Shown in pieces: positions 9,188 to 45,567 of a DNA stretch of 45,567 nucleotides. Source of the DNA: Bacteroidales bacterium (lineage in GTDB: Bacteria; Bacteroidota; Bacteroidia; Bacteroidales; GWF2-38-335); assembly GCA_016936815.1 (NCBI GenBank), contig JAFGXD010000079.1:1-45567 (forward strand), read 5' to 3'. The notes below the pieces were generated by a model. It made no database searches and was not told the origin of the DNA. It was given only the letters and a program-made list of their open reading frames with translations. Every line of letters starts with the position of its first letter. The stretch's first letter is position 1. The translations under genes were made by a program, and so were the position numbers.

Positions 9188-10234
9188 ATGAAAACTTTAA
9201 GAAAACTTACATTTATATTTGGATTAATAACAATTTTAAGCTCATGTTCTTCAACCAATTTACTTACCATGAGTGTTACTGAACCTGCAATTGTATATCT
9301 TCCAAAAAGTATTGAAAAGATAGGTGTAATAAACAGGAGCTTGCCTAATGAAAACAAAAAACTTGTTGAAAACCTTGACAAAATTCTTACTATTGAAGGG
9401 AAAAACCTTGACAAAGACGCAGCTAATGAGGCTGTTAAGGGCGCATTTGAATCATTAATTAAAACCAATCGTTTTTCGTCAGTAAAAAACTTAGATACCA
9501 TTAATTTGAAATCTGTTTACCCCGGAGTTTTTCCTCCCGCTATTGATTGGGCTTCAGTAAACAGAATTTGTGAACAAAACGAGGTACAAGCTTTGTTTGT
9601 ACTTTCATTTTTCGACACCGATTCTAAAATTCATTACAAAACTCAAAATGTGGAAGTTACAGGACCATTGGGTGTTAAAATTCCGGCAATTGAACATCAT
9701 GCTACACTTGCTACACTTGTAAAAACAGGATGGAGAATTTACCTTCCATCGGAAAGGGAAATAATTGACGAATTGGTTATGAGTGACGAAATTTTTGTTA
9801 CCGGAAAAGGAATTAATCCTGCTAAAGCCATAGCTACCATTGCCGGAAGAAAAGATGCAGTAAATCGCCTTAGCTACAATTTTGGATATTCATATCCACC
9901 CAGAATTATGCCCAACAGAATAAGAGTATCTAGAGAATATTTTGTAAGAGGGACGGATAATTTTAAAATAGCAAAACGAAGGGCGCAAACAGGCGACTGG
10001 GATGGTGCAGCAAAACTCTGGGCTCAGGAAACAAATCATCCCAAAAGCAAAGTGGCAGGGAGAGCTTATTACAATATGGCAATTATTAACGAAATTAATG
10101 GGAATCTAGACGAAGCAATTGTAAACGCCTCAAAATCTTATACAGATTATAAAAACAAAAGAGCTCTAAATTACTTGAATATATTGCGTTACAGGATTAA
10201 TCAACAAAACGAGTTAAAACGACAAGAGGAATAA
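9188..10234 (+). CDS. DUF6340-type lipoprotein with C-terminal TPR-like helices
   Basis: A 348-residue envelope lipoprotein. The lipoprotein signal ends in LSSC, with lipid-bearing Cys20. The next part (VTEPAIVYLPKSIEKIGVINRS) is what I recognise as the start of the DUF6340 family of Bacteroidota. The C-terminal part from about 255 onward (GDWDGAAKLWAQET, then AYYNMAIINEINGNLDEAI) reads as two tetratricopeptide-like repeats, suggesting a protein-binding role. I use the ATG at 9188; a TTG seven codons earlier is in frame but would place polar residues before the signal. It is followed after 12 bases by the L,D-transpeptidase gene, so the two are likely cotranscribed. Function unknown. Confidence 0.78.
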   Translation: MKTLRKLTFIFGLITILSSCSSTNLLTMSVTEPAIVYLPKSIEKIGVINRSLPNENKKLVENLDKILTIEGKNLDKDAANEAVKGAFESLIKTNRFSSVKNLDTINLKSVYPGVFPPAIDWASVNRICEQNEVQALFVLSFFDTDSKIHYKTQNVEVTGPLGVKIPAIEHHATLATLVKTGWRIYLPSEREIIDELVMSDEIFVTGKGINPAKAIATIAGRKDAVNRLSYNFGYSYPPRIMPNRIRVSREYFVRGTDNFKIAKRRAQTGDWDGAAKLWAQETNHPKSKVAGRAYYNMAIINEINGNLDEAIVNASKSYTDYKNKRALNYLNILRYRINQQNELKRQEE

Positions 10235-10246
10235 TTTTTCTTAACT

Positions 10247-12112
10247 GTGAAAACTACATTTTTTCTAACCTTCTTAATTTGCTTCTTTGCTCTAATAATT
10301 GCTTTTTCCGGATGCAGTGGAAATAAAAAAGAGAAAGAACAAACTCCCCTTGAACAAATATACTCAAGCAAGTTTTCTTACGACTCCATTTCAACTTACC
10401 TTATAAAGGAACTATCCTTACAAAAGGATACAATTGGATATTTCCCCGATTCAATAAAATATTATGAGGTGTTAAAAATGTATTATTCAGAAAGAAAATT
10501 TCAACCTATTTTAATAAATCAAAACCTTAATAATCCAGACATAGACTCTATTTTAAAGCAGTTAATAAACTCTGAACTGCACGGATTATTAAGAAGCTTT
10601 TATCGTTTAAATGATATAATTGAACTTTTAGATTCGTCAAAAAACTCATTTATTGAAAATGAAATAATTAATTATCAATTACTTGCAAGAGCCGATATTG
10701 TTATTTCAAACTCATTGTTGGAGTATTCAGGCGATTTGCAATATGGAAGAATACATCCGGCTTTGCTGTGGAAAACACATCACGGAATGAAGATGAAAAC
10801 ACGGGACTCAACTACATTCTTCAATCCGCTGAAAGCAATCTCAAAATCCGATTATTTAAAATCTATTCAGCCAAATGGCAGAGATTATAAGAAATTGCAA
10901 AACACTCTTAAATATTATTTAAAAATTAAAGAATCAGGTGGTTGGGATAGTCTTTTTTTAAAAGTTGAAAAAATTGAATTTGGCACCAAAACAAGCTTTG
11001 CCGATAGTTTAGCAAAACGTCTCTTGCAAACATACGATATTGACAGCCTAATTCTTAGCAAAATTCCAATGGAAGGTTATAACGATAGTATCTTGTTTAA
11101 AGCCTTAAAAAATTATCAGTCAAAAAACGGACTATTAAATGATGGTGTAATTGGAAAACATACAATTAATAGCCTTAATATTTCTGTTGACGACAGAATT
11201 AAAAAAATTTCGGCAAATCTTGAAAGATTTAGATGGTTTGAATATCCCGACACAGGAATTTACATTAAAGTAAATCTTCCGGAGTTTATGCTATACCTTC
11301 AAGACAAAGGAAAAACAAGACTTACCATGAAAATATGCTGTGGGGAAGTTAGAGAAAAAAAATACGATGAAAAGATGAAGACCTATCTTAAAACAAAGAA
11401 AAAATATCATAAGCCCAATAATCATGAAACTCCTACAATGTTTAGCAAGATTTCATATTTTGTATTAAACCCTGAATGGATTGTTCCGAAAAACATTACC
11501 GATAACGAAATTATTTATAAAGCTCTAAAAGATTCTAATTACATTGAAAACAATAATTACTGCATTTTTGACGGCGACGAGCAAATAGATCCAAAAACAA
11601 TAGACTGGAAATATTATGCCGACAAACGATTGCCTTATAAAATTAAGCAAAGTTCCGGAGATGGAAACGCTTTAGGAAAGATAAAATTTATGTTCGACAA
11701 TAAACACAGTATTTACCTTCACGACACACCAAACAAAGCAGCTTTTAACAGAGCTTACCGTGCCGTTAGTCATGGTTGCGTTAGAATTCAAAAACCACTT
11801 GAATTAGCCGAAATTCTTATTGAAGATCACAAAAGATGGGATTTTGATGCAATTAGGATGGAGTTAGGAATGAAACCAATTGACGATGAAGACAAGATTA
11901 AATACAAGAAGAAATTGAAGAAATTTGAAGAAAGGATGGAAAAAATGGCCGAGGAAGGCGGAAAACTGGAAACCAAAAGTGTGTATCTGGAAAAAGGCGT
12001 CCCGTTGTATATCGACTATTACACTTGCTGGGTTGACAGTGCCGGAATAATTCAATTCAGACAAGATATTTACAATAGAGATAAAGACCTAATCAGAGCA
12101 TTGTTTAAATAA
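10247..12112 (+). CDS. L,D-transpeptidase lipoprotein, YcbB-like
   Basis: A 621-residue envelope enzyme predicted to make 3-3 cross-links in peptidoglycan, or to attach proteins to it. The start codon is GTG. The signal ends in FSGC, with lipid-bearing Cys23. An N-terminal scaffold domain spans about 60-270. A peptidoglycan-binding-like segment (LFKALKNYQSKNGLLNDGVI, residues 283-302) comes next. The YkuD catalytic domain (about 335-530) carries HD at 492-493 and SHGCVR at 508-513, with catalytic Cys511. A basic insertion at about 370-395 separates the first strands of the catalytic domain. An acidic/basic coiled tail of about 90 residues follows. It is the second gene of a pair with the DUF6340 lipoprotein. 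Confidence 0.9.
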   Translation: MKTTFFLTFLICFFALIIAFSGCSGNKKEKEQTPLEQIYSSKFSYDSISTYLIKELSLQKDTIGYFPDSIKYYEVLKMYYSERKFQPILINQNLNNPDIDSILKQLINSELHGLLRSFYRLNDIIELLDSSKNSFIENEIINYQLLARADIVISNSLLEYSGDLQYGRIHPALLWKTHHGMKMKTRDSTTFFNPLKAISKSDYLKSIQPNGRDYKKLQNTLKYYLKIKESGGWDSLFLKVEKIEFGTKTSFADSLAKRLLQTYDIDSLILSKIPMEGYNDSILFKALKNYQSKNGLLNDGVIGKHTINSLNISVDDRIKKISANLERFRWFEYPDTGIYIKVNLPEFMLYLQDKGKTRLTMKICCGEVREKKYDEKMKTYLKTKKKYHKPNNHETPTMFSKISYFVLNPEWIVPKNITDNEIIYKALKDSNYIENNNYCIFDGDEQIDPKTIDWKYYADKRLPYKIKQSSGDGNALGKIKFMFDNKHSIYLHDTPNKAAFNRAYRAVSHGCVRIQKPLELAEILIEDHKRWDFDAIRMELGMKPIDDEDKIKYKKKLKKFEERMEKMAEEGGKLETKSVYLEKGVPLYIDYYTCWVDSAGIIQFRQDIYNRDKDLIRALFK

Positions 12113-12140
12113 AATCAGCTTAATTCTATTATAAACAAAA

Positions 12141-12459
12141 CTACTTATACCTCACAAACCTAATTATTAAATCCTTATTATTAGTAGTAGAAATTTTCAG
12201 TAAAAACATACCTGATTGTAAAGATCTTACATCAACAACTTTATTGTGGCCTGATAAGATTTGGTTACCATACAAATCGTAAATACAAAAACCAATTACT
12301 TCTGTTGATTCTATATACAAATAATCATTTACCGGATTAGGATAGATTCTAATACTATTTTCCAAATTATCTACTTTAATTAGTGCAGTATCAACCACAA
12401 AAACGTGTGATTCAAGGTTAAACAAATAACAATACAGATAATGCAAATAGTATTCGCAT
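12141..12459 (-). pseudogene. Remnant secreted-protein gene: signal peptide plus type IX sorting domain, frameshifted
   Basis: The main open frame (12141-12461) has no ATG. Its last ~75 residues are a typical type IX secretion C-terminal sorting domain: IRIYPNPVNDYLYIES, then IYDLYGNQILSG, then LQSGMFLLKIST. In another frame an ATG at 12459 (minus) gives MRILFALSVLLFV and then a TAA at 12418-12420. That is a plausible signal peptide start, and it lies one base out of frame with the sorting domain. Joining the two would give a ~100-residue protein with almost no cargo. I read it as the leftover of a deleted secreted protein, with a +1 shift at about 12420-12430. A short intact gene with a sequencing error is the alternative. 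Confidence 0.6.
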
Positions 12460-12530
12460 AGCTAAAAATAAGTATATCGTACAAAACAACAGTAGAACAA
12501 CAAAAGCAAGCCTATACTAAAAATAAAATC

Positions 12531-14288
12531 TTACTTCCTTCCAACCTTAACTCTATTGCCTTTTCCGGGGTTGGCTGCAAGAAAAGCATCTACTTTGGCT
12601 TGTAGTCTTCCGGATTCTTTATGCTTGATTAACATTTGAGTAATTTCAGCAGTAGAGTAAGAGTTTACATTGGACTCTGTTCTTACCGTTGGGAAAGGAG
12701 AATCTGCATATAAAGAAGGCTTCTTGCTGAAATTGGCAATCTTTTTCTTAGCAACTGCTCCATCTTGAATTACTCCGTTAATTATTTGAAATGGATCTCC
12801 GTTTTCCTGAGCAAAATACAAATAGTTATTTGCTTCGTCGTGTTCGGCTATTGCATCAAATCCATCGGCAATCATTACCAAATAATAAGATCCTGTAAAT
12901 GCTTTGTTGCTTCCCGGATTGCTTGGGTCGGGAATGCTTGTTGGCATTGAATAAGTGAACTGGAAGTAATTTCCCGGATCTGAACCTGATGGATCGTAAA
13001 GTGCATCGGCAACAGACCAACCTGCAGGTACATCAATATAATTCCACCAGTTTCCTGAAGCTCCGTAAAGTGTAGCTCCGGTAACATCTGCCAAATTTCC
13101 GTCTTGTCCGTAAGAACCATACTCGTTGGTATAGTAATCGTATAGAACTATTCCGTAATCGTTGGCATCGTAAGCATTGTAATACAAGTAAACTATATTC
13201 CATTTGTTGGAGGCGGTAATGGCACTCTGACCAACATTATAAACATTGTAAGAACATTTTCTGTTAAGAAGACTTGGGCCTGAGCCATAATCGTATGAAT
13301 CGTATTCATCAGCTAAAGCCCAACCAACAAGATCGTAAGTAGAAGAAGAACTTCCGGGAGTTGAATAATTTGAATTTAAAGATTTTGCAACAAAAGCGCA
13401 GAAACAAAATTCATTTACAAAGAAATTGTAGTCAACCCAAATGTAACCGTTGTCGCCCCAATTTGTTCCCCAGGAGTTAACAACTCTAAAAGCCCCATTT
13501 GGACCTTTGTTGTCGTCGTAACCACATAAAGCCATTGCGTGGTAAGCATGTTGCATTCCGGGATCTAAGTAAGTGTCGGAACTAATAATGTTGCTTGAAT
13601 TCCAACTCATAAAATTATCGCCAAGTTTTGCTCCAATAGCAACGGCACGACCATCGTTAAGATAGTCTTTAATCTCATTAATATTGGTATAGGAAATTTT
13701 TCTGTAATTCTCTATTTTGTAAGAATTTGCTTCACCTGTCCATTCTGATTCCGGAGAAGAGGAACAATCGCCCAAGCCGGTGTAAGGAACTTTGCTAAGT
13801 GTTGCAACTCCTCTTGATACCATTATGTCGAAAGCCGATTCGAAACCGGTTCCGTTACAATCTTCGCCTTTATTGGCATTAGAAATTGCCCAGAATAAAT
13901 CTTTAGGGCTAAACTGATTTGAACTTGTAGCAAGCTGAGAGCTGCTTAAACCATTGTCAACACCATGCAAAAAGGTTCGTAAATTGTAACCAAGCGACCA
14001 TGCCACACAAGTGCCGTACTGACCTTGATTTCCAATAGGCGGGAATTTTGCTGAAAGGTCAACTGAGCTGGGAAGACTTCCGTCGTCAATTGTTTCGTCG
14101 AGGTTAATATCTTGTTCCAATTCGTCAAGATTTTCATCTTCTGCTCCAATCCAACCAAGAAGGTAGTTTAGAGCTCCGTCGGGAGATAATTCTTCCTCAT
14201 CGCAGGCCGAAAATGTTAATACTGTGGCAAATAAAAAGAATAAACTTGCCGCAGCCAATAGGCTTATTTTTTTCATTTTTGATTTCAT
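12531..14288 (-). CDS. Papain-like (C1) cysteine protease lipoprotein
   Basis: A 585-residue surface or periplasmic lipoprotein, with a signal ending in TFSAC and lipid-bearing Cys29. The catalytic domain spans about 75-305: Gln88 in GNQGQYGTCVAWS (oxyanion hole), Cys94 (nucleophile), His250 in HAYHAMALCGYDD, and Asn271 in VVNSWGTNWGDNGYIWV. All C1 catalytic residues are present. There is only a short acidic linker (30-70), with no long inhibitory propeptide. The C-terminal half (about 310-530) is rich in Tyr, Asn and Gly and looks like a beta-sandwich I cannot name. The last 50 residues are basic. It has no type IX sorting domain, unlike many secreted neighbours. It starts five bases after the pentapeptide gene, so the two are cotranscribed. 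Confidence 0.85.
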   Translation of the reverse strand: MKSKMKKISLLAAASLFFLFATVLTFSACDEEELSPDGALNYLLGWIGAEDENLDELEQDINLDETIDDGSLPSSVDLSAKFPPIGNQGQYGTCVAWSLGYNLRTFLHGVDNGLSSSQLATSSNQFSPKDLFWAISNANKGEDCNGTGFESAFDIMVSRGVATLSKVPYTGLGDCSSSPESEWTGEANSYKIENYRKISYTNINEIKDYLNDGRAVAIGAKLGDNFMSWNSSNIISSDTYLDPGMQHAYHAMALCGYDDNKGPNGAFRVVNSWGTNWGDNGYIWVDYNFFVNEFCFCAFVAKSLNSNYSTPGSSSSTYDLVGWALADEYDSYDYGSGPSLLNRKCSYNVYNVGQSAITASNKWNIVYLYYNAYDANDYGIVLYDYYTNEYGSYGQDGNLADVTGATLYGASGNWWNYIDVPAGWSVADALYDPSGSDPGNYFQFTYSMPTSIPDPSNPGSNKAFTGSYYLVMIADGFDAIAEHDEANNYLYFAQENGDPFQIINGVIQDGAVAKKKIANFSKKPSLYADSPFPTVRTESNVNSYSTAEITQMLIKHKESGRLQAKVDAFLAANPGKGNRVKVGRK

Positions 14289-34085: not shown

Positions 34086-34892
34086 TTATTGCTCAACATT
34101 GCCGGTAACCTTTAAAACAATTTTGCTGTTTTTTGGGTCGTTGGTAAAAACATCAATGGTTTTTGTTACATTTCCTTTTTTGCCTGATGTACGAAGAGTT
34201 ACAGTAATTTGACTTTTTTCTCCGGACTTAATTGGTTGGTCAGTTTTGCTGACTGCGGTGCAGCCTCAGCCAGCCTTTACTGAACGAATTTCCAGATCTT
34301 CCTTGCCTTTATTTATAAATGAAAATTCGTGAGTTACTGTTGCGCCCTGTTTAACAGTTCCATAATTGTAAACAAGAGTATCGAATTCGATTTTTGGAGC
34401 TCGTTTTAATTGCTTTTTTGTATAGGCAGTAAAATCTTCCTCAATTGTTCCACTAATGTTTAAAATATTTTTACGACCTTTCTCAACATCTTCATTAATA
34501 ATTACCTGTATTGAAGCCCTAATTGCTCCCCAAATTTGTTTGCCATCGGGTTTTTTATTCTTTTCGGGATGAATTGTAGCAATAATATAACCTTTTTGGT
34601 CGGGAGCAAGTTTTTCGGGAACTGCTTTTACACTTATATACTCAGGGTTATTCATAAAGCTGAGTTTCAATTCCTTTTCACTTACATTCCAAACGTGCAC
34701 AGTATCTGTTTTGGGTTTAACATGACTTACCGTTTGAAAAGCCATATAGCTTTTGTCAACTTTTAATACTCCGTCGCCAAATTGAAACGAATAGCGAATA
34801 GGTTCAGTTTTGGCGGCTTCTTTTACTTGCGCATTTGCAATAAAAATTCCCATTGCAAAAAACAAGAATACGAAACCAAGATTTTTTCTCAT
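34086..34892 (-). CDS. DUF1573 protein with in-frame TGA at a conserved cysteine (candidate selenoprotein)
   Basis: From the ATG at 34892 there is a signal peptide (1-21, cut after ANA), a first Ig-like domain (about 30-140) and a DUF1573 domain. At codon 209 the frame meets TGA (34268-34266). It sits in IRSVKAG-TGA-GCTAV, where DUF1573 proteins have KASCGCT. The TGA takes the place of the first cysteine. The frame then stays open for 59 codons and ends at TAA (34086-34088). Those residues (SGEKSQITVTLRTSGKKGNV and so on) are what the DUF1573 C-terminal half should be. TGA is a normal stop elsewhere here, so recoding, nonsense mutation or sequence error are the options. I favour selenocysteine. 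Read without recoding, a 208-residue product results. A good promoter lies just upstream. Confidence 0.65.
34239..34270 (-). promoter_or_regulatory. Overlapping hairpins at and after the in-frame TGA (SECIS-like candidate)
   Basis: Two mutually exclusive stems are visible in the mRNA. One pairs GCUGA with UCAGC and CUGC with GCAG (34270-34248), with loop ACC and a GG bulge; the TGA is inside its lower strand. The other pairs GUCAG with CUGAC (34253-34239) around CAAAA, and its loop begins 17 bases after the TGA. That distance fits the bacterial SECIS window, but a clear G at the start of the loop is missing. Function not shown. Confidence 0.4.
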
Positions 34893-38486: not shown

Positions 38487-41400
38487 CTATTGTCGTAAGA
38501 TAATTCTACTTGTGTAGATATTTTCTTTAGCAACAAGGTTAATAAAGTAAACTCCGGCTTTCAGTCCTTTAAGGTCGAATTCTGTTATTTCACTAACATT
38601 TTCAATTCTTCCTACATTTTCGCCAAGTACGTTCACTATTTCAATATGCTCAATTTCAATGTTAAAAAGTTCAATCTTTATAACACCTGAAGTTGGGTTA
38701 GGATAGATTAAATAACCGTTAGAGTAGCTCTTTCCTGCAATTTGATCAGAAAAGTCAACATAAATTGAATCTACAGTTTCACAGTTATTGTTATCTGTAA
38801 TGGTTACATAATACCAACCAAAAGAAAGATCTGTAATAGTATCTGTAAATCCACCATTACTCCAATCGTAAACATAATCCGGTGTTCCTCCTGATACTTC
38901 AACCCAAGCAGAACCGTTTCCGGCTCCAACAGGACTTTCTTCAACTGATCCCATAATCAAAACTAATTCAGCAGGTTCTCCAATAGTAAAGCTAGTAATT
39001 GTTTGACATCCCAAATCGTCACTAACAGTTAGAGAATAATCTCCGGCAGCAAGGAAGTCTTCGTTAGCTTCTGTTCCTCCGGAAGACCAGTTGTAATCGT
39101 AAGGAGCGGTACCACCTGTGACATTAGCAACAGCGTTTCCATTTGCTACACCAAAACAAGTAGCATCATAAGCAGAAACTAAAACAACAGGAGCGCCCAA
39201 ATCGTTTACCACAAAACTATCATTGGTAATACAACCATTTTCATCTGTAACCTCAACGCTGTAGGTTCCTGATAATAGATTGCTTAATGCATCAACAGTT
39301 TCTCCGCCATCCCATAAGATGTAATATGGTGAAGTTCCACCAATCATTGAAATACTAATGCTTCCATCGGCCATACCACAGTTTGCATCGTTTATTGAAG
39401 CAATAATCTCAAGAGAATCGGGCTGGGTAATTGTGTAAGTTTCAACTAACTGACAGTTATTATTGTCGGTTAAGGTAACAATATAATCACCGGCACAAAG
39501 TCCTGTTATTGAGGCATCGGTTGAAGAATTAGACCAAAGAATTGAGATTGGTGCTGTTCCTCCTGAAACTCCAATATTTATTGCACCATTGCAAGCATTG
39601 AAACAAGTAACATTAACCAAATCAATAACGTTTGCTGAAATTTGTGTTGGTTCCGCTACAGTCGCTGAACTTGTAATCTCGCATAAATTCTCATCGGTTA
39701 CGGTTACTGTGTAAATATCTGCAGAAAGTCCGGTAATAGCATCAGTACTTGCACCATTAGACCATGCGTAAGTGTAGATTCCTGTTCCACCGTTTACAAT
39801 AGTACTCACAGATCCATTATTATCTCCAAAACAAGTAATATCGGTTGCAGTTGCAGTTACTGTAAATTCAATAGGTTCAGCAATAATTACAGAAACTTCT
39901 TCTGTACAATTGTTTACATCGGTAACAGTTATTTGGTAAGTACCCGCTGTTAGTCCGGTTTCAGTAGCCGCAGAACCGCCATTAGACCAAGCAATGATGT
40001 AAGGAGAAATTCCACCGGTAACAGAAACACTTGCAGAACCATTGTTTCCACCATAACAAGCCACATCGTTATTTACTGATGTGCCGGCAATAAGTTCTGC
40101 AGGTTCAGTAATTACAACATCTATTGTTGATGAACAAGTGTTTGCATCGGTAACAGTAGCAGTTGTTGTTCCTGCACATAAACCACTTGCAGTAAGACCA
40201 TTTTCACCTGTTAGCCATGAAATTGTAAATGGAGCTGTTCCACTGGTTATTTCAATTTCGGCCGTTCCGTTACAATCTCCGTAACAACTAACATTGGTTT
40301 GTGAAACAAGCGATAATACCGGTCCGCCGGCATCATTAACATTTGCTAAGCCTGTTACTTCACAAAGGTTTGCATCGTAAACTGATACTCCATAAGAACC
40401 TGAAGCAAGTCCCGAAACAGATGCTCCGGTTGATCCATCATACCACAAATAAGTATAAGTTCCTGTACCACCTGTTGGAGCAACAGAAGCAGAACCGTTT
40501 GAAGCTCCACAACTTGCATCTGTTGTTGTTAGGTTTATAGCAATTGCTGAAGGCTCAGTAACTGTATATGAGCCGGTTGCAACACAAGAATTATCGTCGC
40601 TAACTGTAACGTTAACTGTTCCTGCGCAAAGGCCGTTAATGTTAGCTGTGGTTGAGAATGTAGGATTATCCCAAATGTAGCTGTATGAACCTGTTCCTCC
40701 GGTAACACTTACTGAAGCTGTTCCGTCACAGTTTGCGTTACAAGTCATACTTGTACCCGAAACACTAGCTGTTAGCTCGTCCGGTTGAGTAATTGTAACA
40801 CTTCCTGTAGCTTGACAAGCATTAGCATCGGTAACGGTAAGTCCGTAAGTTCCTGCAACTAATCCGGTAAGGTTTGGTGTAACTGCACCACCTGTCCAAG
40901 TATAGCTGTATGGACTGGTTCCTCCTGTTACAGTTGAGGTAGCCGAACCGTTAGCATCGCCAAAACAAAGAACATTTGTCTGAGCAATTGCAATATTTAA
41001 TGCAGCAGGTTGAGTAATAGTAACATTTGCAGTTGCACTTACCATACTGGCATCGGTTGCTGTTACAGTATAAACACCGTTACATAAACCTGTTGCTGTT
41101 GTGGTAGTTTGTGAAGCTGCACTCCATAAGTAAGTAATTGGAGCAACACCTCCACTTGCAAGAGCAGTAGCCGATCCATTACAATCGCCAAAACAAGTTG
41201 GGTTAACAAATCCTGTTATTGAAACAGAGAAAACACCCGGTTCGTTTACAGTTGCTGAAGCATAAGCCTCGCATCCGTTGGCATCGGTAACAACCACATT
41301 GTATGTTCCTGCTGAAAGTCCTGTTGCAGTAGCAGTTGTTTGTGAAGAACCATCGTCCCACAAATAAGTGAAAGAACCGGCTCCACCTGAAGCAGTAACG

Positions 41401-44400
41401 GTAGCAGTACCATCTGAGCCGCCTGCAACACTAACATCTGTTGCACTTGCAGAAGCAGTAAGCAATGAAGGTTGACTTACAGTATATGAACCACCATCTG
41501 TACAACCATTTGCATCGCTAACAACAACATTGTATGTTCCCGGAGCTAAATTAGTAGCTGTAGAAGTTGTTTGAGTAGCTGCATCATCCCATAAAAATGA
41601 ATATGTACCTGTTCCACCAACAACTGAGGCGCTTGCTGTTCCATTGGCATTACCAAAACAATCTACATTGGTTCCGGTAACAGTAGCAACAAGTTCTGCA
41701 GGTTGAGTAATTGTAACATTTCTAGTTATTGAGCAACCATTAATGTCGCTAATTTCAACTGAATGAGTACCCTGACATAGTCCGGTTTCTGTAGCAGCAG
41801 AGCCGCCGGTTGACCAAGAGTAAGAATATACCGGAGTTCCTCCTGAAACGTTAACAGTAGCAGAACCATTACATGAACCATAACAACTTGCATTTACAAC
41901 ACCTGAAATTGATGCGTTTAAAGCAGTAGGTTCAGTAATTGTAACAGAAGCTGCCGCATTGCAACCAACATTGTCGGTTACGTTTACTGAATGAGTTCCT
42001 GCACACATACCGGTTTCATTTAAACCTGAACCACCTGTTGACCATGCAATTGTATAAGGTGCAGTACCTCCTGAAACTGAAACAGTTGCAGTTCCATCAC
42101 AAACTCCGTTACATGATACATTTCCTGAAGAAGTAATTGTAGCAGTTGGAGCTCCAAGGTCGTTTACGTTTGCTGTGGCAGTTTGCTGACATCCGTTAGC
42201 ATCGCTAACTGTAACAACATAAGAACCTGCATAAAGAGCAGTTGCTGTTGCTGTAGTTTGACTTCCTGCAGCAGCATTCCAAAGATAAGTTAGAGTACCT
42301 GTTCCACCTGAAGCACTAACAGTTGCAGTTCCATCGTTATTTCCGCAAGTTGCAGGAGTTGATGAAGTGGTAGCTGAAATTGCAGCAGGTTCGGTAATTA
42401 CTTGTGAGTTGTTAATTACACAACCTTTGTTATCTGTAACAACAACCGTATAAGTACCGGCACAAAGATTTGTAGCAGTAGCAGTTGTTTGGAAGCCTGG
42501 ATCGTTCCATGAATATGTATATGGAGATGTTCCGCCGGAAACACTTGCAGTTGCAGTTCCATTACAAGAAGCATTACATGTGTTGTTAGTTCCGGACATT
42601 GTTAGAGATAGAGCAGTTGGCTGATTTATTGTTACACTTGAATTAATAACACAACTATTTGCATCAGTTACAGTTAAGCCATAAGTTCCCTGAGTTAATC
42701 CTGAAATATTTGCTGTTGTAGCCAAATTTGACCATGCATAAGTATAAGGACTAGCTCCACCTGATACAGTTGAATTAGCAGCTCCGTCGTTTCCTCCAAA
42801 GCAACTAATATCCGTTGCTGCAATATTAAGTGAAAGAGCAGCAGGTTCTGTAATAGTTACACTTGAAGTTCTGGCACAAAGATTCGCATCAGTTACTGTT
42901 ATTGTGTAAACACCTGCCGGAAGGTTGGAATAAGTTACTGTTCCATCTCCGGTATAACCATTTGGAGCCCAGTTATAAACATAAGGAGTTGTACCTCCGG
43001 TAACCAAAACAGTGGCCGAACCGGTTGAAGCTCCATTACAAAGTACGTTAACTTTGGAAATAGTGTTTACAATAGAAGCGGGCTGAGTAATAGTTACTGA
43101 ACCTGTTGTTTGACAAGAATTCTGATCTGTTACTGTAACAGAGTATGTTCCGGGAATCAAACTACTTATTGTTGAAGTGGTTTGTCCACCTGTCCATAAA
43201 TAAGATATTGTTCCTGTACCTCCTGAGGCAGAAACAGATGCTGAACCGTTTGCTGCACCATTACAAGTAACATTTGTTCCACTGGTTGTAGCTGCCAAAG
43301 CAGTTGGTTGGGTAATTGTTACTGAATTGCTTGCAGTACAAGAATTTGCATCGCTTATTGTAACAGTATATGTTCCGGCTACAAGATTTGTGTTTGTAGC
43401 TGAAGAACTACCATTCGACCATGCAAATAAGTAAGGACTTGTTCCTCCTGATGCACTTACAGTAGCAGAACCGGTATTTCCACCATTACACAAAACATCG
43501 CTTGAACTAATTGTTGAACTAATAGCTGTAGGCTGAGTAACGGTAGTTGAGGCAGTAGTCTGACAACCATTAACATCTGTTACTGTTACACTGTATGTTC
43601 CGGCAATTAATCCGGAAATGGTTGTTGTAGTAGCTCCTGTAGACCATAAATAATTATATCCTGCAGTTCCTCCGGCAGCTGAAACAGTTGCAGTTCCATT
43701 ATTTCCGCCAAAGCAAGAAACATTGGTTCTTGAAGCAGTTGCAGATAATGCTGTTGGTTGACTAACTGAAACAGAAGCAGATTGAGTACAAGAATTTGCG
43801 TCACTTACAGTAACAGTGTATGTTCCTGCAGGTAAATTTGAATAAGTTGTAGTTCCATCACCTGTAAATCCATTAGGAGCCCAGTTGTATCCGTAAGGAG
43901 AAGTTCCTCCTGCTACCGATACAGTAGCCTGACCGTTTGATAAACCATTACAAGTAACATTAGTATTTCCTGTAGTCAGTGTCATTCCGGCAGGTTGGGT
44001 AATTACAGCAGAAGTTATTTCTGTACAACCATTTGCATCTGTTACTGTAACAGTATATGTTCCTGCAATCAAATTAGAATAAGTAGCAGTACCATCGCCT
44101 GTATAACCATTTGGAGCCCAGTTAAATCCATAAGGAGAAGTTCCTCCGGCAGCATTTACAGTAGCTGAACCATTATTTCCGCCAAAACAAGAAACCTGTT
44201 GGTTAACAACTGTTGAAGCAAGCAAATCTGTTGGTTGTGTAATAACAACTGAAGTAGAAGCAGTACAAGAGTTAGCATCGGTTACAGTAACTGTGTAAGT
44301 TCCTTGAGTTAATCCTGAAATAGTTGCTCCTGAACCACCGTTGCTCCATGCATAACCCAAAGCACCTGTTCCGCCAACACCTGTGGCTGTAGCAGTTCCA

Positions 44401-45567
44401 TTATTTCCACCAAAACAAGAAACATTAGTTCCTGAAGCAGAAACAGTAAGTTGAGTTGGTTGAGTAACGGCAATACTTCCGGTAGCAGTACATGAATTCG
44501 CGTCGGTTATGGTAATTGTATAAGTTCCGGCAGTTAGATTTGAATAAACATTTGTGCCATCGCCAGTAAAACCATTTGGAGCCCAGTTATATGCAATAGT
44601 ACCTGTTCCACCTGAAGCAGTTGCAGTTGCAGTTCCGTTGTTTCCGCCAAAGCAAGAAACGTTGGTTCTAGTAAGAGCCACTGTTAATAAGGTAGGTTGA
44701 GTAATAGTTGCACTAGCTGTGCCCACGCAAGAGTTAACATCGTAAACCGATACAGAATAAGTTCCGGCAGCTAAGTTAATCGCTGTTGCAGTTGTTTGTC
44801 CATTTGACCATAAGTACGTATAGCCGGGGGTTCCACCTGAGCCTGTAACCGTTGCTGTTCCATTAGATCCACCATTACAAGAAACATTGGTTTGACCTGA
44901 AATTGTAGCAGTAACAGCAGTAGCAGGCTCATTAACAGTTGTCATTGCAGTAGCTGTACAAGTATTTGCATCTGTAACAGTTACATTATAAATACCTGCA
45001 ATAAGAGAACTTGCAGTCTGGTTAGTTTGACCACCCGGATTCCATAAGTAAGTATAAGGAGAAGTTCCTCCGGAAGGAGCTGCAGTTGCAGTACCGTTGT
45101 TTCCACCAAAGCAAGTAACATTAGTAGCAGAGGCAGTTACAGAAGGAACATCATTTACAGTAATATAAGCTGTTTGCGTTATTGAGTTTGTACCACTGGC
45201 ATTTGTAACAGTAAGAGAAACATCATAAGTCCCCGGAGTGTTGTAAACCACCGAAGGATTCTGGTTTGTTGATGTCCCAGGTGTACCACCGTTGAAAGTC
45301 CATGACCAAGAAGTTGGAATGTTTGTTGATTGGTCAGTAAAAATAACTGTTCCTCCATCACATACAGAAGTAATATCTGATGAGAAATCGGCTACCGGAG
45401 GTGCATTTAATGGAATGCCTGTAACATAAATATCATCAATCATACTAGCTCTGGAAGCCTGAATTGCGCCACTAATACCGGTATTACTTGTCATTATCCA
45501 TCTTAAATATACCAAGGGTTTATTTTCACATGCGCTTGGTAAGGCAACATCATTAAGGTTACCTGTA
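38487..45567 (-). CDS. Giant SprB-repeat, type IX-secreted surface protein, 5' end outside window
   Basis: At least 2359 residues; the frame is open to the last base. The visible N-terminal part (VALPSACENKPLVYLRW, then SMIDDIYVTG) looks like the end of a jelly-roll/laminin-G-like domain. A PKD domain follows (45401-45156: PVADFS, TPGTYDVSLTV). Then come about 28 SprB repeats of ~76 residues, each with CFGGNNGTAT, GGTSPYTYLW and AGTYTVTVTDAN phrases. The last ~80 residues are a type IX sorting domain (YLIYPNPTSG, VLGENVG, LKAGVYFINL). SprB of Flavobacterium is the gliding adhesin. Surface adhesion or motility is likely here; no gliding gene is in this window. A strong terminator follows. Confidence 0.9.
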   Translation of the reverse strand, partial: TGNLNDVALPSACENKPLVYLRWIMTSNTGISGAIQASRASMIDDIYVTGIPLNAPPVADFSSDITSVCDGGTVIFTDQSTNIPTSWSWTFNGGTPGTSTNQNPSVVYNTPGTYDVSLTVTNASGTNSITQTAYITVNDVPSVTASATNVTCFGGNNGTATAAPSGGTSPYTYLWNPGGQTNQTASSLIAGIYNVTVTDANTCTATAMTTVNEPATAVTATISGQTNVSCNGGSNGTATVTGSGGTPGYTYLWSNGQTTATAINLAAGTYSVSVYDVNSCVGTASATITQPTLLTVALTRTNVSCFGGNNGTATATASGGTGTIAYNWAPNGFTGDGTNVYSNLTAGTYTITITDANSCTATGSIAVTQPTQLTVSASGTNVSCFGGNNGTATATGVGGTGALGYAWSNGGSGATISGLTQGTYTVTVTDANSCTASTSVVITQPTDLLASTVVNQQVSCFGGNNGSATVNAAGGTSPYGFNWAPNGYTGDGTATYSNLIAGTYTVTVTDANGCTEITSAVITQPAGMTLTTGNTNVTCNGLSNGQATVSVAGGTSPYGYNWAPNGFTGDGTTTYSNLPAGTYTVTVSDANSCTQSASVSVSQPTALSATASRTNVSCFGGNNGTATVSAAGGTAGYNYLWSTGATTTTISGLIAGTYSVTVTDVNGCQTTASTTVTQPTAISSTISSSDVLCNGGNTGSATVSASGGTSPYLFAWSNGSSSATNTNLVAGTYTVTISDANSCTASNSVTITQPTALAATTSGTNVTCNGAANGSASVSASGGTGTISYLWTGGQTTSTISSLIPGTYSVTVTDQNSCQTTGSVTITQPASIVNTISKVNVLCNGASTGSATVLVTGGTTPYVYNWAPNGYTGDGTVTYSNLPAGVYTITVTDANLCARTSSVTITEPAALSLNIAATDISCFGGNDGAANSTVSGGASPYTYAWSNLATTANISGLTQGTYGLTVTDANSCVINSSVTINQPTALSLTMSGTNNTCNASCNGTATASVSGGTSPYTYSWNDPGFQTTATATNLCAGTYTVVVTDNKGCVINNSQVITEPAAISATTSSTPATCGNNDGTATVSASGGTGTLTYLWNAAAGSQTTATATALYAGSYVVTVSDANGCQQTATANVNDLGAPTATITSSGNVSCNGVCDGTATVSVSGGTAPYTIAWSTGGSGLNETGMCAGTHSVNVTDNVGCNAAASVTITEPTALNASISGVVNASCYGSCNGSATVNVSGGTPVYSYSWSTGGSAATETGLCQGTHSVEISDINGCSITRNVTITQPAELVATVTGTNVDCFGNANGTASASVVGGTGTYSFLWDDAATQTTSTATNLAPGTYNVVVSDANGCTDGGSYTVSQPSLLTASASATDVSVAGGSDGTATVTASGGAGSFTYLWDDGSSQTTATATGLSAGTYNVVVTDANGCEAYASATVNEPGVFSVSITGFVNPTCFGDCNGSATALASGGVAPITYLWSAASQTTTTATGLCNGVYTVTATDASMVSATANVTITQPAALNIAIAQTNVLCFGDANGSATSTVTGGTSPYSYTWTGGAVTPNLTGLVAGTYGLTVTDANACQATGSVTITQPDELTASVSGTSMTCNANCDGTASVSVTGGTGSYSYIWDNPTFSTTANINGLCAGTVNVTVSDDNSCVATGSYTVTEPSAIAINLTTTDASCGASNGSASVAPTGGTGTYTYLWYDGSTGASVSGLASGSYGVSVYDANLCEVTGLANVNDAGGPVLSLVSQTNVSCYGDCNGTAEIEITSGTAPFTISWLTGENGLTASGLCAGTTTATVTDANTCSSTIDVVITEPAELIAGTSVNNDVACYGGNNGSASVSVTGGISPYIIAWSNGGSAATETGLTAGTYQITVTDVNNCTEEVSVIIAEPIEFTVTATATDITCFGDNNGSVSTIVNGGTGIYTYAWSNGASTDAITGLSADIYTVTVTDENLCEITSSATVAEPTQISANVIDLVNVTCFNACNGAINIGVSGGTAPISILWSNSSTDASITGLCAGDYIVTLTDNNNCQLVETYTITQPDSLEIIASINDANCGMADGSISISMIGGTSPYYILWDGGETVDALSNLLSGTYSVEVTDENGCITNDSFVVNDLGAPVVLVSAYDATCFGVANGNAVANVTGGTAPYDYNWSSGGTEANEDFLAAGDYSLTVSDDLGCQTITSFTIGEPAELVLIMGSVEESPVGAGNGSAWVEVSGGTPDYVYDWSNGGFTDTITDLSFGWYYVTITDNNNCETVDSIYVDFSDQIAGKSYSNGYLIYPNPTSGVIKIELFNIEIEHIEIVNVLGENVGRIENVSEITEFDLKGLKAGVYFINLVAKENIYTSRIILRQ
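38755..45152 (-). repeat. Array of about 28 SprB repeats (~228 bases each)
   Basis: By counting the C-x-G-x-x-x-G onset I find about 28 coding repeats. In four (third, fifth, sixth and tenth from the N-terminal side) the tryptophan strand is extended to WAPNGxTGDGT. Two copies (the 17th, with VSVAGGSDG, and the last, with PVGAGNG) lack the usual cysteine. Similarity between neighbours is moderate at the DNA level, so the array is old rather than freshly expanded. Confidence 0.85.

Follow-up and report, generated by a model that had tools for sequence, protein, structure and literature searches.

A DUF1573 gene with an in-frame TGA

The reverse strand of the window, which is the whole 45,567-nt stretch of Bacteroidales DNA analysed here, carries a proposed DUF1573 selenoprotein gene of 268 codons (34086..34892, (-)) that begins with an ATG at 34892 and ends with a TAA at 34086-34088. 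Translation of this frame yields 208 residues, a TGA (bases 34268-34266), 59 sense codons, and the terminal TAA. When the TGA is read through, the protein matches Pfam PF07610 (DUF1573) over residues 168-266 with 99.1 bits (gathering cut-off 26.1), which confirms the claim of a preliminary description of this locus that the open codons after the TGA complete the domain. This C-terminal, Ig-like domain is encoded at 34092..34391 (-), and a loop that joins two of its strands holds the U-G-C motif. The TGA itself is codon 209 (34266..34268, (-)), the proposed selenocysteine and the U of UGC, and its Cys partner is codon 211. Alignment of 14 homologues placed codon 209 in a column that is otherwise an invariant Cys, the one that opens the DUF1573 CGC motif, as had been described. 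The gene, although apparently interrupted, is very probably intact and has a selenium-containing amino acid at the TGA.

Reading through all TGAs in the window lengthened a sense ORF by more than 40 codons solely in the codon-209 gene, and the single other read-through match is antisense to a gene. The N-terminus of the protein (MRKNLGFVFLFFAMGIFIANAQ) resembles a signal peptide. An Rfam scan around the gene returned no matches. Elsewhere on the same strand (38487-45515, (-)) the window encodes a very large SprB-repeat protein with 28 repeats and a Por secretion-tail domain.

TGA-bearing homologues and the downstream hairpin

Searches of 60 relatives and of 393 genomes of the order revealed TGA at the codon equivalent to 209 in nine more Bacteroidota homologues, spread over seven genomes. 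They occur in G001 and G160 (two copies each) and in G053, G253, G239, G198, and G305; the G001 contigs are those of Bacteroidetes bacterium GWF2_38_335, which belongs to the same genus as the window genome (G000). Together with the window gene, ten Bacteroidota genes thus carry TGA at a codon that otherwise specifies Cys, and the position of the TGA is not random, as had been argued from the window alone. The motifs at the TGA site are KAGUGCT, KGSUGCT, KASUGCT, and RGCUGCN. The replacement of Ser by Gly before the TGA, which had been singled out as a possible demand of RNA structure, is not a special feature, since most Sec homologues keep the Ser (KGS-U, KAS-U), and this codon falls outside the hairpin.

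Two homologues (G159 and G174) bear a TAA instead. These stops lie in the middle domain of proteins that keep CGCT, in genomes without selA, and look like ordinary lesions or errors. A phylum-level full-length search gave no match beyond the window's own genome at E 1e-40, and the phage and plasmid collections contained distant relatives only. The window genome also encodes a Cys-type three-domain DUF1573 protein (G000 C102) whose N-terminal domain holds a second CGC motif. C102 keeps this N-terminal motif, whereas the five three-domain Sec proteins (L064, L100, L101, L102, and L105) have lost it.

Just downstream of the TGA lies the proposed apical hairpin of a bSECIS element, GTCAG-CAAAA-CTGAC (34239..34253, (-)), which occupies nucleotides 16-30 in a count that starts at the TGA's T. 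Its two arms (16-20 and 26-30) are fully paired in nine of the ten Sec genes versus one of 39 Cys homologues (Fisher P 5e-8), and the exception, the G305 gene, has a different hairpin (GTCC-AATGC-GGAC) at about the same place. Four of the five pairs have compensatory substitutions in both arms; the remaining pair is invariant. The covariation score was matched by one of 500 shuffles and no slid register came close. Random choice among synonymous codons, which leaves the protein unchanged, completed the five pairs in 2-17% of cases, depending on the gene.

The published bSECIS model calls for a stem of 4-16 bp, a loop of 3-9 nt with a G in its first two positions, 16-37 nt between UGA and loop, and an MFE of -7.5 kcal/mol or lower (PMC13188914). 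The window hairpin falls at the margin of these limits when taken as a 4-bp stem with a 7-nt loop (GCAAAAC), which has G first and starts 16 nt after the UGA. The MFE of the 45-nt segment is -8.0 kcal/mol in the window, but this value does not describe the hairpin by itself, and an alternative fold of these 45 nt is slightly favoured; the corresponding MFE in G239 is just -6.2 kcal/mol, short of the -7.5 kcal/mol limit. Further weak points of the hairpin are its short stem of 5 bp and the C that follows the loop G, where G or U is preferred.

Selenocysteine machinery and competing explanations

The gene selA scored over the cut-off in 43 of the order's 393 genomes; every one of the seven other TGA-bearing genomes has it (hypergeometric P 1.2e-7, a value that is approximate given shared ancestry). 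A tRNA-Sec was found over the cut-off in G001, G053, G253, G198, and G305, and also in G032; none was detected in the selA-bearing MAGs G239 and G160. Genome G001 has selA, selB, selC, and selD, arranged with the tRNA-Sec upstream of selA-selB-class V aminotransferase-yedF-(Fic-like ORF)-selD, where names other than selA and tRNA-Sec were assigned by reading the sequences. On contig C378 of G305 (~9536-13540, L105 and its neighbours), selA, tRNA-Sec (selC), a Cys DUF1573, and the Sec DUF1573 adjoin one another.

The MAG that contains the window (95.5% complete, 192 contigs) encodes a true selD (355 bits), but no selA, and neither selB nor tRNA-Sec was found in it above the cut-off; its sub-threshold tRNA-Sec-like matches are Ser, Leu, Cys, Tyr, Thr, and His tRNAs. 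The preliminary description had counted a genome lacking Sec machinery against selenocysteine, and nominally the missing selA, selB, and selC fit that outcome. The selD gene resides on a 6519-bp contig (C189, L070) with yedF and the class V aminotransferase gene in the G001 order, and this contig stops 15 bp short of the aminotransferase ORF, at the place that selA-selB takes in G001. Because the contig ends at the expected selA-selB position, we take an assembly gap as the likely cause of the absence: judging from gene order, selA, selB, and selC are likely present in the organism and hidden in the gap, with true loss a possibility. FdhA was considered as a second Sec protein and rejected, as the copies in G000 and G001 have no in-frame TGA.

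True loss would make the gene a young relic, descended from a selenoprotein whose host recently lost selA, selB, and selC, such that the TGA is now a stop and SelD serves, e.g., for selenouridine. The absence of these three genes from a 95.5%-complete assembly that retains selD agrees with such a history, as does the orphan selD reported in one Bacteroidetes genome (PMC5029168). We nevertheless regard it as improbable: the downstream frame and the hairpin are intact and no other lesion is present, the selD-yedF-aminotransferase contig breaks off exactly where selA-selB is expected, and G239 and G160, which do have selA, likewise lack a detected tRNA-Sec, showing that fragmented MAGs lose parts.

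The source is a draft MAG, in which a misread or misassembled base, or a random nonsense mutation, could have turned a TGC or TGT codon into TGA, yet nine independent homologues from seven other genomes share the same TGA codon and eight of them also share the window's hairpin, which makes this explanation extremely improbable. It is just as hard to credit that another amino acid (Trp or Cys) is inserted at UGA, by read-through or codon reassignment and with no selenium involved, given that TGA read-through lengthens one sense ORF in the whole window and that the TGA replaces a Cys, tracks selA, and is accompanied by a SECIS-like hairpin. Selenocysteine, the interpretation originally proposed for this gene, is strongly supported because the TGA is conserved in ten homologues, selA is present in every one of the seven other genomes, and the hairpin covaries. 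The best explanation as a whole, in which we have high confidence, is a secreted or periplasmic DUF1573 selenoprotein with a Sec209/Cys211 pair, whose UGA 209 is decoded by means of SelB and a bSECIS.

Proposed function and relationship to known selenoproteins

The AlphaFold model of the window protein (mean pLDDT 87.9) has two Ig-like halves, and residues 209-211 are placed in the loop that leads from strand 202-207 to strand 211-215. Among solved structures, 2qsv from Porphyromonas gingivalis, a protein of unknown function, comes closest, followed by HYDIN-type ASH domains. In the mechanism we propose, the gene would give rise to a DUF1573 selenoprotein that, judging from its N-terminus, is secreted or periplasmic. 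A short bSECIS stem-loop just downstream of the UGA would direct SelB and tRNA-Sec to insert selenocysteine at codon 209, and the resulting Sec-Gly-Cys motif would sit in an exposed loop of the C-terminal Ig-like domain. There, Sec209 and Cys211 could be linked reversibly as a selenenylsulfide, or act as a selenol/thiol pair that binds metal, in redox chemistry outside the cytoplasm. We infer that the protein is an exported redox or metal-binding protein with Sec209/Cys211 as its reactive pair.

The preliminary description knew of no DUF1573 selenoprotein, but such proteins had already been catalogued: DUF1573 with UGC appears in published selenoprotein lists (PMC9312934, PMC13188914), and OS_HP2 appears in PMC2398784 and is credited to Zhang and Gladyshev 2007 by PMC9312934. 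DUF1573 selenoproteins ("OS_HP2", UGC) have been listed since 2007-2008, and an NCBIfam model (NF041425) exists. Like them, the window protein has the Pfam DUF1573 domain, with its proposed Sec in place of the Cys that opens CGC (giving UGC), and it would depend on bacterial Sec decoding. Unlike OS_HP2, it occurs in Bacteroidota and has a specific upstream domain; with TGA read as Cys, it scored 92.5 bits with NF041425 and the G001 C7 protein 79.0 bits, both below the curated cut-off of 100. The Cys-type Bacteroidales DUF1573 proteins (e.g., G000 C102 and G001 C12) have the same fold and upstream domain, but they carry CGCT where the window protein has UGCT, and among Cys-type genes a SECIS-like hairpin is found in one of 39. 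The Bacteroidota DUF1573 selenoproteins are a new branch of an already catalogued kind of selenoprotein.

A tree of 62 domains groups nine of the Bacteroidota Sec domains in a separate clade (96/90). Three Sec domains from Desulfobacterota/Deltaproteobacteria are set apart from it by a supported branch (99/96), and that of G305 lies near its own Cys neighbour. In AU tests, one clade for all Sec domains was not rejected (p 0.10, 0.22, and 0.15), and several origins of Sec are therefore suggested, not shown. We tentatively raise the possibility, short of favouring it, that Sec arose in Bacteroidota DUF1573 proteins separately from its origin in the deltaproteobacterial OS_HP2 proteins, perhaps twice (in the main clade and in G305), which would make this secreted domain a repeated target of Cys-to-Sec exchange.

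A 2006 survey did not detect Sec decoding in Bacteroidetes (PMC1794560) and a 2026 review does not mention the phylum (PMC13188914); against that record stands the occurrence of selA in more than a tenth of the genomes of one order. Gene callers that treat TGA as a stop truncate the protein at its proposed redox motif, and at that point the order's annotation is probably incorrect. Genomes with both Cys and Sec copies (G305 and G001) offer a natural Cys/Sec comparison for a domain of unknown function, and in G305 the pair is linked to the Sec machinery. Outside Bacteroidota, a Phycisphaerae MAG (JANQHN010000246.1; L144 3018, 4293) encodes two DUF1573-like domains, each of which has a TGA in frame where the motif would be (GGUGTT and GGUGMR) and lacks a Cys two residues on; by sequence, these are further selenoprotein candidates.
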